DNA of 64,000 bases from Myxococcales bacterium (lineage in GTDB: Bacteria > Myxococcota_A > Polyangia > Polyangiales > Houyiibacteriaceae), in contig JAOTVB010000005.1 of NCBI GenBank assembly GCA_029863605.1, positions 62,001-126,000 on the forward strand, in the 5' to 3' direction. A program made the position numbers and the translations under genes. Positions 25,603 to 31,549 of the stretch are shown here, piece by piece; positions within the stretch are counted from its first letter, which is position 1; every line of letters starts with the position of its first letter. Under the pieces are notes generated by a model. It was given only the letters and a program-made list of their open reading frames with translations. It was not told the DNA's origin and searched no databases.

Positions 25603-25628
25603 TGGGCTCCAGCGGTAGGACTCGAACC
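25603..25628 (-). repeat. distal attachment-site repeat (tRNA-Asn 3' end copy)
   Basis: These 26 bp are identical to 31473-31498. In the intact gene they cover the tRNA-Asn 3' half of the T-arm, the 3' acceptor strand, the discriminator base and 4 bp of flank. Here there is no tRNA 5' part, so this is the orphaned copy expected when an element integrates into the 3' end of a tRNA gene. Confidence 0.8.
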
Positions 25629-25664
25629 GTTCTCGGAACACCCTGGTTCGCATGATTCAGTAGC

Positions 25665-25757
25665 AGCCCGAGGAAGGCAAACGCTTCGTACAATCGCACC
25701 TGGGCCGAGCTGATACGCCGCGGACTCGACCTCGATGTGCTCGAGTGCCCTGACTGA
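25665..25757 (+). pseudogene. IS91-like transposase C-terminal remnant
   Basis: One plus-strand frame reads YNRTWAELIRRGLDLDVLEC followed by PD and a stop at 25755-25757. This resembles the end of IS91-type (Y2) transposases, where a WAELLRRVFxxDVLxCPxCGG segment precedes a zinc-finger-like CxxC. Only about 25 residues remain and the second cysteine pair is lost. The rest of the transposase is absent. Confidence 0.5.
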
Positions 25758-25949
25758 GCCGGTGCTTACCCTCGCCCTTAACGGCGCGGACGGCAAGACG
25801 CTACTCGCCTGGAGCCAGATCGTGCTTCCAGCGCTCGAGGGGGAGCCGCATGCGCGGGCCCGTGCGGTCGTCGAGGGCCGCCTCGACTTGATCCCCCGGG
25901 CGTACGCGCAGCAGATCGCCGACTTCCTCGAAATCAAGCTGCGGCTGCG
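25758..25949. other. unassigned stretch inside the island
   Basis: An open frame runs on the plus strand through this stretch (ending 25959; ADGKTLLAWSQIVLPALEGE is a typical segment). It has no good start signal and I do not recognise the family. It may be a 3' fragment of another mobile-element gene. Confidence 0.3.
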
Positions 25950-26156
25950 CTACCGATGACGGATGATCATGAAGTTGTAATCTTTGTTCCGGTGGTCGAA
26001 CTCCCGGTCCTCGAGACCCGGATTGAGCTCGAGGTAGAGGTACTCGTAGGATTCGTAGAGCCTTCCGTAGTGGTCCCAAGTCATCGCTTTGATCATCAGG
26101 GACGTGCGCTTGCTGATGAAGTATTTTCCTCCGCTCCCGTAGTAGTGCGGAACGAA
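25950..26156 (-). pseudogene. DUF1329-like C-terminal fragment
   Basis: The minus strand encodes about 68 residues running from FVPHYYGSGGKYFISKRTSL through KAMTWDHYGRLYESYEYLYL to EFDHRNKDYNFMI and a stop. The SKR...TW...YDxxGxLY pattern and the final DFxxxNxxYxF-like end resemble the C-terminus of DUF1329 outer-membrane-associated proteins. Nothing upstream matches the rest of that ~400-aa family and hairpins interrupt the frame's context, so I call it a truncated relic. Confidence 0.45.
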
Positions 26157-26189
26157 GAGCCATGCCCGAGTGCGCCCCGCGATAGAAGA

Positions 26190-26258
26190 AGCCCGGCCGA
26201 AGCCGGGCTCGATAGCGTTGCGTACGAAAGGCCCCGAGACCATTTTGATCTCGGGGCC
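26190..26258. other. two strong hairpins beside a tRNA-like 3' end
   Basis: A GCCCGGC stem closed by a 4-nt loop (TTCG on the minus strand) lies at 26190-26209. A perfect 10-bp stem (GGCCCCGAGA) with a 9-nt loop lies at 26230-26258. On the minus strand both look like terminators (followed by TTCTTC and TTTC). Just beyond, 26259-26269 reads GTTGGGGTCACC on the minus strand, like a tRNA 3' end. This may be another tRNA-end-plus-terminator relic. Confidence 0.45.
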
Positions 26259-28941: not shown

Positions 28942-29347
28942 AACGCGACCACGTAAGCCTTGCCTCCACCAATTCCCGCATTCCTCAGCGGTTTCGACGC
29001 CTTGAGAACGCTGGTCCCTCAGCCGCGCAACTTTTTAGGGGGCAAAACCGATAACAGGGTCTCGGGAAGGAGATATCGGTGAACAGTCGTGGTTTCGGAG
29101 CAGAGCGCGCCTCAGTTGACGGACGCGCGAGTGAGTCGACGGTGGACACTGTCGGAAGCATCATCAGTGTTCCACGCTCGCCTGCAGCGCGCACTCTCTT
29201 AGCGGACTGAATTGCCCGGAACTAAGCGTTATGTCGACTTGTTGAGACCCGAGAGAGTGTTTGTAGTTACTATCAGCCCCTTCGTCTCGCTCGGTTGTTT
29301 TTTGGGTACACCGGGCTCCTCCGATACGCTGCCGCTCGGAGGCGCGG
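28942..29347. other. intergenic stretch between the two island lipoproteins
   Basis: No recognisable gene. It holds one short frame with a strong Shine-Dalgarno (29079-29210, listed separately) and the presumed promoter of the 550-aa lipoprotein, which I could not define. Confidence 0.4.
29079..29210 (+). CDS. possible 43-aa small ORF
   Basis: A GTG start at 29079 has AAGGAG 6 nt upstream, an ideal spacing, and leads to 43 codons (MNSRGFGAERASVDGRAS..., ending LLAD). No family is recognised, the composition is unremarkable, and it lies inside a decayed island, so a chance signal is possible. I list it because the ribosome-binding site is among the better ones in the window. Confidence 0.3.
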   Translation: MNSRGFGAERASVDGRASESTVDTVGSIISVPRSPAARTLLAD

Positions 29348-31000
29348 ATGATTCGAGTTTGGCTAATTGGTTGCGCGGTGCTGGCGATCGGCTGTGGAGA
29401 CACCTCAGGCAACGGCGGAGGTGGAATGGGCGGAGTCGGCGGAATGGGCGGAGCCGGTGGCACCGGAGGTACCGACATCTGCGACACCCTTCCCTGCGAG
29501 TGTGACACGGACGACGATTGCGGGGAGCACGAAACCTGCGATTCGTCCGACGCGGGACGCCTTTGCATCTGCGTCGCCGCCTATGAGGACACCGGGAGCG
29601 GCTGCGAGTTCGCTGGGGCGCCGCTTGCGCCCGGATTCGATGACGCTGTGCCATGGACGACGTCGGGCGGGGCCGTTCTCGATCCTGGTGCCGATGGCTT
29701 CGACGATCCAGGTGTGGTGACTTGGGTGGATGAGAACGCGCTCTGCGACGGTTCTAGCGTCTCGCAAACATTCACCATGCCGCCGTACGCTGCCGCCGAA
29801 CCCTTGGCCCTCGAGCTGACGTACAACGGGGAGGAGGATTTCCTTTTTTTCGACGAGGCGGAAGCGATGGTGGCGATTAACGAGAAGTGGACTCGCTATC
29901 CCGGCAATGGCGCATTCTCCACGACCACCACGTGCCTTGGGGAGTCGGCTTTCGGCGGAGATGTCGAGTTCCGCGTCGAGGGACTTACTCGCTCCTGCCC
30001 GAGCAACCTGCAGCTGATCGTGGACCGACTGGAGGTGGTGACTGCAGCCAACGCGGGGCTCGACTGTCCCGATCCAGGCGTGGTCAGGGACGGTGACTTC
30101 GACGGAGACGGCACCGCTTGGGAGATGTCTGGCGATGCCACCGTCGAGGACGGCATCGGCCAGAACGGATCACGGGCAGGGCGACTGCAGACGCAGACCC
30201 TATGTTCGAGCGCTTCACTCGAGGGTCTGGCCTCCTGGCCGCTGCAAAGCAGCGTCGCCAACCCCGCGCTCCGGTTCTTCTGGAGTGGAACTACGGGTCG
30301 TGTGCTGGATGTGTCGGTGGGTGAATTCGCCCTGGCGAGCTTCACTGCAAGCGGTACGACGAGCACCAGCACGGTGTGCCTGCCCCCGAGCTCCCAAGGA
30401 CTAGCGCAAAGGGTCTCGCTCGGTATTCCGTTCACTGGCGGATCATGCGCAGCGCCAGACGTACGCGATTTCATCGTCGACACGCTGGAGGTCGTGAGTG
30501 CACCTGACTGCGGAGACGATCCCTACCTCGTCGACGGCGACTTCGAGCTGGCGCTGACCGGCACGGTCTCGAGCGGATGGCTCCTGCTTTCCAACGAGCC
30601 CTGGGGCACTGTCAGCATCGTCACCAGCGACGCACAAAGCGGCAGCGCCTCATTGCAATTGGCGTCCCGACAGGACTGCTTTGGCGTTTCCGCACAAGCG
30701 ACCTTCGTCGTTCCCAAACCCGATGCATCGGGCGGACCAGCCCTGAAGTACTACTTTCGAGTCGGCAATAACCCGGAGACGGAGACTTCCTCGACCCCCG
30801 GCAACGGAGCGCTGCCCGAAGGCGGAGCTGCGTTTGCAGAGGAGACGGTGTGCTTGGACCCCGCAGACGCGACCAAGCCGCAGACGCTCAGCTTCACCAT
30901 CAGCCCCGGAGGCGGCCTCTGTGCGGACACTTTCCCCGAGGAGCAGGCGCTCATCGACAACGTCCGAGTGACGACCGACCCGGCGTGTCCTAGCGAATGA
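29348..31000 (+). CDS. lipoprotein with EGF-like segment and three Cys repeats
   Basis: A 550-aa lipoprotein. The lipobox is LAIGC (Cys 16), followed by a GGxGG linker of about 20 residues and a Cys-rich EGF-like segment (about 44-88: CDTLPCECDTDDDCG, then CICVAAYEDTGSGC). Three repeats of about 150 residues follow. Each carries a LC...S...F segment, a TVCL-like segment, and an end like DFIVDTLEVV before a cysteine. The repeats look like beta-sandwich binding domains of the kind found at myxobacterial cell surfaces. GGAGG lies 6 nt before the ATG. No enzyme motif is visible. Surface adhesion or substrate binding is the likely role, by inference only. Confidence 0.82.
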   Translation: MIRVWLIGCAVLAIGCGDTSGNGGGGMGGVGGMGGAGGTGGTDICDTLPCECDTDDDCGEHETCDSSDAGRLCICVAAYEDTGSGCEFAGAPLAPGFDDAVPWTTSGGAVLDPGADGFDDPGVVTWVDENALCDGSSVSQTFTMPPYAAAEPLALELTYNGEEDFLFFDEAEAMVAINEKWTRYPGNGAFSTTTTCLGESAFGGDVEFRVEGLTRSCPSNLQLIVDRLEVVTAANAGLDCPDPGVVRDGDFDGDGTAWEMSGDATVEDGIGQNGSRAGRLQTQTLCSSASLEGLASWPLQSSVANPALRFFWSGTTGRVLDVSVGEFALASFTASGTTSTSTVCLPPSSQGLAQRVSLGIPFTGGSCAAPDVRDFIVDTLEVVSAPDCGDDPYLVDGDFELALTGTVSSGWLLLSNEPWGTVSIVTSDAQSGSASLQLASRQDCFGVSAQATFVVPKPDASGGPALKYYFRVGNNPETETSSTPGNGALPEGGAAFAEETVCLDPADATKPQTLSFTISPGGGLCADTFPEEQALIDNVRVTTDPACPSE

Positions 31001-31420
31001 GGCTGCGGTATCGAAATCGATGAGGCCGCGCGGCCTGTTCGCGCCCGCACATCAGCTAGAAGCTGCAAGAACTGCGACCCGGCGGCAGGTGCCCCTCCTG
31101 TTACTCATGGGGCGACCGCTGATCCCCGTGGCGACGTCTGGCGGACGCGCACGGTTGTGCTCGACTCCGCGGCGCTGGGCATTCGCAACTGTGGCCACCA
31201 TGGACTGCGCCGCTATTTCATTTCCTACGCGCGCAGGGGCGGCGCGCGCGCCGATATGCTCGAGCGCGTCACCCATAACAGCGCTGGCACCATTGTGGAC
31301 GTCTACCCGGACCCTGACGCGCTTTGGCCCGCATTGTGCGAGGCCGTGCAATGTCTCAAGGTCACCTGGCCGACGAACAACGTCGTCGCGCTCCCGATAG
31401 CGGTCGGAATGGACACTGCT
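31001..31420 (+). pseudogene. tyrosine-recombinase (integrase) C-terminal remnant
   Basis: The frame continues directly after the lipoprotein stop and reads TVVLDSAALGIRNCGHHGLR, then [32 protein letters not shown] and LCEAVQCL. GHHGLRR is the H-x-x-R box, THNSAG supplies the second His position, and DVY is a candidate catalytic Tyr. The N-terminal arm, core-binding domain and first catalytic Arg are missing, so it is inactive as it stands. It points at the tRNA-Asn gene about 60 bp away, the usual arrangement for a tRNA-targeting integrase. The open frame runs on through the tRNA but that part is not protein. Confidence 0.72.
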
Positions 31421-31472
31421 ACGGACACTCAAGAAGACGAAAAAGAAAAACCGAGTGAAGACAACGTACTTG

Positions 31473-31498
31473 TGGGCTCCAGCGGTAGGACTCGAACC
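31473..31498 (-). repeat. proximal attachment-site repeat inside tRNA-Asn
   Basis: 26 bp identical to 25603-25628, covering the tRNA-Asn 3' half of the T-arm, the acceptor strand, discriminator and 4 bp beyond. With the other copy it frames a 5.9-kb island. Confidence 0.8.
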
Positions 31499-31549
31499 TA
31501 CGACCAAGCGATTAACAGTCGCCCGCTCTACCAACTGAGCTACGCTGGA
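31477..31549 (-). tRNA. tRNA-Asn (anticodon GTT)
   Basis: A complete 73-nt cloverleaf on the minus strand: acceptor TCCAGCG with CGCTGGA, D-arm GCTC-AGTTGGTA-GAGC, anticodon stem GGCGA/TCGCT with loop CTGTTAA (anticodon GTT), T-arm GTAGG-TTCGAGT-CCTAC and discriminator G. CCA is not encoded (the next bases are CCC). Its 3' end is the integration target of the neighbouring island. Confidence 0.95.

Follow-up and report, generated by a model that had tools for sequence, protein, structure and literature searches.

Remnant of a small integrative element, most likely mobilizable, in the 3′ end of a tRNA-Asn gene of a Myxococcales bacterium

Genomic islands that integrate into tRNA genes and then decay are of a well-known kind (PMC4383910, PMC5704250). 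An island in the sense of Islander (PMC4383910) has the intact target gene, encoding a tRNA or the transfer-messenger RNA (tmRNA), at one end and a displaced 3′ fragment of it at the other, and integrative and mobilizable elements (IMEs; reviewed in PMC5704250) combine an integration/excision module of their own with a relaxase and/or an origin of transfer (oriT) and use the mating pore of another element for transfer. Here, we analyzed a 64,000-nucleotide (nt) stretch of DNA (the window), which is part of contig C17 of the 4.2-Mb genome (G000) of a Myxococcales bacterium. We conclude that a small integrative element, in all likelihood mobilizable, very probably left its remnant at positions 25603-31498, in the 3′ end of a tRNA-Asn gene. 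The locus resembles Islander islands in that the intact target and its displaced 3′ fragment stand at the ends in the same orientation, a tyrosine integrase sequence lies on the tRNA side, and the crossover is of the T-stem type; it differs in that only the C-terminus of the integrase remains, so that the island is not putatively active. As in IMEs, intact relatives within the genus have an integrase and a relaxase and, in the stretches read, no mating-pore genes, and the window shares with these relatives an integrase end, a 36-nt signature and the order of the parts. The window copy differs from IMEs in having no relaxase, no working integrase and apparently no oriT block.

A preliminary description of this DNA, made from the sequence alone, had bounded a decayed island by an exact 26-base-pair (bp) direct repeat corresponding to the 3′ end of tRNA-Asn. 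Both the coordinates and the identity of the repeat were confirmed: two identical copies of TGGGCTCCAGCGGTAGGACTCGAACC are present on the same strand, one at each end of the island. ARAGORN detected one tRNA in the window, the tRNA-Asn, with which Rfam concurred; beyond it, a lax Rfam threshold gave sub-threshold matches alone. When up to three mismatches were allowed, the 24-nt core of the repeat was found in the whole genome in just these two copies, and a reversed control pattern was found nowhere, so a chance occurrence is excluded. The window thus contains a tRNA gene together with its displaced 3′ fragment in the correct orientation. The 3′ 26 bp of the intact gene (31473-31498) are the attachment (att) copy supplied by the element, and the boundaries can be read to a single base, as had been proposed.

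The direction of the insertion is revealed by the terminator. Elsewhere in the genus, what comes after an intact tRNA-Asn gene is GCCA, then a terminator (GAGGCCTTCTCAAGAGCTAGAAGGCCTTTT and variants), then a short stretch that is conserved, and this order is uninterrupted in nine genomes (loci L049-L052 and L054-L058). In the window, the native stretch stands behind the displaced left copy of the repeat, while the intact tRNA-Asn continues instead into integrase sequence, which is the arrangement expected from insertion into the 3′ end. The minus-strand terminator noted earlier beyond the left copy is real (25569-25596, with a hairpin at 25573-25596 and a T-run) and shares homology with the terminator that the relatives have natively at tRNA-Asn, and the idea that an insertion had pushed the old end away is borne out by its placement and by the nine uninterrupted loci. 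The comparison with empty sites that had been suggested succeeded in part: the uninterrupted target exists in related genomes, but the genes flanking it differ from those of the window and none of these loci is the exact empty site.

Two further observations concern these regions. A short sequence, CTCGWACCKACGGTGTACTCG, recurs behind tRNA-Asn and tRNA-Leu terminators at 18 sites in 12 of the 19 genomes of the genus, including the tRNA-Asn genes of loci L049-L058 and three positions in the source genome (G000:C7:194436, C7:194600 and C17:149328). The best tRNA-Asn match in genome G019 (L059 864-932, on G019:C244) has a T arm that is short by approximately 7 nt, and ARAGORN does not call it; it is either a broken gene or an assembly error.

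Table 1. Features of the island and its surroundings (positions in the window)
Feature	Position	Strand	Evidence
Further junction relic: integrase gene end fused to 18 nt of the tRNA-Asn 3′ end (25450-25467)	25383-25467	-	blastn to L046 10054-10151, E 9e-10
Native tRNA-Asn downstream region with terminator	25537-25602	-	blastn to the region behind intact tRNA-Asn in L049-L052, L055, L057, L058
Displaced old tRNA-Asn 3′ end (distal att copy)	25603-25628	-	Exact 26-bp direct repeat
Element arm beside the distal att site (CTACTGAATCATGCGAA...)	25629-25664	-	Conserved in G018: L060 (tRNA-Asn), L078 (tmRNA end)
Captured piece of chromosome with the 3′ ends of two genes, one conserved (+) and one DUF1571/LysM (-)	25756-26158		84% to G020 and G028
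Short tRNA-Glu 3′-end relic (26259-26273), then two hairpins	26184-26273	-	Weak alone
745-residue putative lipoprotein (cargo)	26599-28836	+	Open frame, lipobox-like N-terminus
tRNA-Glu(CUC) 3′-half relic (28874-28925) and hairpin (28846-28867)	28846-28925	-	86.5% to the genome's tRNA-Glu, E 5e-9
36-nt signature of the genus's integrative/mobilizable elements	29024-29059	+	24 sites in the genus
550-residue putative lipoprotein (cargo)	29348-31000	+	Open frame; genus-level paralogue group
Tyrosine integrase relic directly against the tRNA 3′ end (C-terminal ~100 residues, remainder missing)	31160-31462	+	67% to G020, 50% to the C9 integrase
tRNA-Asn(GTT), intact, sole copy in the genome	31473-31550	-	ARAGORN, Rfam, genome search
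Sucrose cluster (HAD, sucrose synthase) between the tRNA-Asn promoter and the 38024 block	31593-38023		Absent here in G025

The two inner boundaries carry further marks of an integrative element. At the distal side, the terminator and the arm, CTACTGAATCATGCGAA..., recur together in genome G018 (L060), at an independent second tRNA-Asn end that has been displaced, while on another contig of that genome (L078) a similar arm abuts the 3′ end of tmRNA and is followed by an integrase gene; the latter junction looks like an element attachment site (attP) or a tandem of elements. The occurrence of one conserved arm at both tmRNA and tRNA-Asn suggests a switch of target within one group. At the tRNA side, the integrase relic of the preliminary description is real. 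The relative it resembles most stands beside tRNA-Asn in G020, the one in its own genome is an intact 453-residue integrase on contig C9, and more matches were found in G017, G018, G025 and G028. The copies of C9, G028 and G025 are located at tmRNA, and several related integrase frames continue into the target RNA gene, in antisense to it.

The C9 integrase belongs to a small, apparently intact, tmRNA-integrated element (G000:C9:68200-72330; L076 10198-14334), the distal att copy of which was not found in the stretches read. Facing away from its integrase gene, the element has genes for a NikA/TraJ-like protein and a relaxase; the relaxase clears the curated TraI/MobP cut-off, and the accessory protein matches TraJ/NikA weakly. 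The 36-nt signature lies between the integrase operon and the TraJ-like/relaxase operon. The integrase end, the signature and the hairpin at 26184-26216 have an identical order and orientation in the window and in the C9 element, and this collinearity with a relaxase-bearing element indicates that the window element probably descends from a mobilizable one. By analogy with the intact relatives, the window copy may once have had a relaxase and moved by conjugation. The element is no longer able to move by itself: no excisionase was found in the window frames tested, and the integrase is truncated. The most fitting name for it is a relic of an IME-like element, as it is without the relaxase of an IME and, with its integrase broken, not an active Islander island.

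The locus very probably arose as follows. A tyrosine integrase recombined the attP of the element with the T-arm/acceptor end of the sole tRNA-Asn gene. The element brought a new 3′ end, which left the tRNA intact, and the old 3′ end was shifted by 5.87 kb together with its terminator. Most of the integrase and, presumably, the transfer genes were later lost, while two lipoprotein genes, a chromosome fragment and tRNA-Glu relics were either retained or acquired.

Several observations weigh against this history. The comparison turned up no strain in which exactly this site is empty, and the closest relative, G025, differs by more than the island and is without the native terminator. The window retains no relaxase, TraJ or TraK gene, nor a second intergenic block that is conserved in intact relatives (see below). 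The element is also composite, and its foreign pieces may have come later. A more elaborate history can be drawn from this, in which at least two elements used this tRNA-Asn successively, a 2.6-kb unit (26184-28925) carrying the 745-residue lipoprotein gene is nested between the tRNA-Glu relics, and the 26-bp repeats mark the last or outermost insertion only. Such a history draws on the two tRNA-Glu relics, which surround that gene in direct orientation and have related hairpins, on the captured chromosome fragment, and on a third tRNA-Asn/integrase junction relic (25383-25467), which is a trace of a further insertion at the tRNA-Asn locus. This junction, however, is located outside the 26-bp repeats, past the native terminator; no integrase for an insertion into tRNA-Glu was found in 26184-28925; and the left tRNA-Glu relic is short, its score of 17.5 standing against a maximum of 16.5 in 300 shuffles. 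We therefore regard serial insertion as possible but somewhat doubtful.

An origin from a prophage or phage satellite unconnected with conjugation appears improbable. Tyrosine integrases at tRNA genes are common to phages too, and the intact C9 integrase matches phrog_1, but neither the cargo proteins nor the integrase relic match PHROGs and no phage structural genes were present among the proteins tested. Moreover, the closest intact elements have a TraI/MobP relaxase and NikA/TraJ-like proteins, and the 36-nt signature is also carried by relaxase-bearing elements. That the second tRNA-Asn end stems from a local duplication or rearrangement rather than from site-specific integration is very improbable. 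The locus has indeed been rearranged, since most relatives have the block that starts at 38024 in the window 3′ of tRNA-Asn and in the opposite orientation, while here it is 5′; yet the copy ends within the T arm, bears the native terminator and faces a conserved arm, with an integrase end at the opposite boundary, which is the pattern of integration. The two tRNA-Asn copies of G020 were left out as evidence for duplication, because one of them adjoins a run of N.

The part most worth following is the 36-nt signature (consensus CGCGCAACTTTTTGGGGGGCAAAACCGATAACAGGG), which is specific to the genus and shared by elements with unrelated recombinases. Among 184 genomes of the order, a search allowing at most one mismatch in 20 nt returned 24 sites (loci L146-L169), spread over 12 genomes that all belong to this genus; the 165 genomes of the order outside the genus gave none, nor did a reversed control. 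Mobility genes surround 21 of the 23 sites outside the window, the remaining two, L146 and L149, having none within 1.5 kb. The neighbors include tyrosine integrases of several kinds, serine recombinases, TraI-like relaxases, NikA/TraJ-like proteins, DUF5338 proteins and helix-turn-helix proteins, some of them assigned by inspection of the frames, without a library hit. At five loci, a TraJ-like gene begins approximately 400 bp from the signature and is transcribed away from it. Nearer to the TraJ-like gene, a second conserved block, consisting of the inverted repeat AGTTTTGTTAAACAAAACT followed by CCACCTTGCCC, was found in L151, L152, L153, L165 and L167; it is missing from the window. This block is a better candidate for a nick region than the signature itself. 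When folded as single-stranded DNA, the signature was no better than shuffled sequences, and a hairpin-based role is thus not supported.

The relatives share with transfer region 1 of IncP (RP4/RK2) a TraI/MobP relaxase, a weak TraJ/NikA match and a DUF5338 gene that diverges across a conserved intergenic region. They differ in being chromosomal and integrase-borne, and the interval between the signature and traJ does not contain the YATCCTG nick pattern. We take the DUF5338 gene to be TraK-like, and the layout presumably resembles the traK-oriT-traJI region of IncP, which we treat as a lead only. Two roles are conceivable for the signature: it may belong to oriT, or it may be bound by a regulator of the integrase/TraK operon. 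A wider proposal, which we put forward tentatively and consider unlikely, is that it is a shared transfer-region site (a part of oriT or the site of a transfer regulator) kept by all elements of the genus, whether their recombinases are of the tyrosine or the serine type and whether or not they have a relaxase; islands without a relaxase, at one time including that of the window, would then be mobilizable in trans by the TraI/TraJ of their neighbors. If true, this would amount to a genus-wide hitch-hiking mobilome around one short DNA site. A limited literature search found no myxobacterial element family of this kind. The island is an entry point to a set of small elements of the TraI/MobP type from a myxobacterial genus that is uncultured, and the short genus-specific tag makes both intact and decayed members easy to locate.

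Inside the island, both cargo lipoprotein genes reported earlier were recovered as frames uninterrupted from start to stop. The 745-residue protein has a weak PPC match only and no convincing relative in the bacterial family, while the 550-residue protein has one relative at 60% in G018; the frames listed for the contig of that relative include no mobility genes. The transposase relic described with them proved to be something else: its frame (25735-25959) corresponds to the C-terminus encoded by a conserved chromosomal gene, and Pfam gave no transposase match in the window frames tested, so that a transposase relic is not supported. The encoded protein has no Pfam family; full-length copies occur at another place in this genome and in almost all genomes of the bacterial family. 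This gene end is part of a 403-bp captured piece spanning the ends of two converging genes, to which contig C28 of the same genome has a copy (82% over 204 bp); the matches to G020 and G028 extend over all 403 bp.

The hairpin AAGCCCGGCTTCGGCCGGGCTT occurs in four copies in the genome when up to two mismatches are allowed (26189-26210, 28846-28867, G000:C9:72307 and G000:C17:165923), each immediately downstream of a tRNA-Glu 3′ relic. The first of these, the second hairpin of the left relic, is shared with the C9 element. The tRNA-Glu(CUC) gene of this genome, at C45:34697, has a different hairpin, and AAGCCCGGCTTCGGCCGGGCTT may be a dispersed tRNA-derived terminator unit. A sub-threshold Rfam match to asX2 at 28846-28895 is accounted for by the right tRNA-Glu relic and its hairpin.

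The surroundings of the island are not stable core: the variable zone reaches past 25603-31549 on both sides. In G025, which is 95.6% identical over 19095-24774, 46 bp separate the Usp gene from tRNA-Asn, and directly past the tRNA promoter comes the block from 38024. This genome has no island, no native terminator and no cupin gene, nor, at this site, the 6.4-kb sucrose cluster. The cupin and sucrose HAD genes flanking the island had been predicted to be adjacent at the empty site; a simple cupin/tRNA/HAD site is ruled out, as the cupin gene has a single, partial match elsewhere in the genus and the pair of sucrose HAD and sucrose synthase genes, present in nearly all genomes of the genus, has another location. 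The HAD of the window shares 79% identity with its G020 counterpart but only 65% with the one in G025, contrary to the relationship of the flanks, which suggests acquisition. The sucrose cluster was probably acquired separately, and the HAD identities suggest replacement by horizontal transfer.

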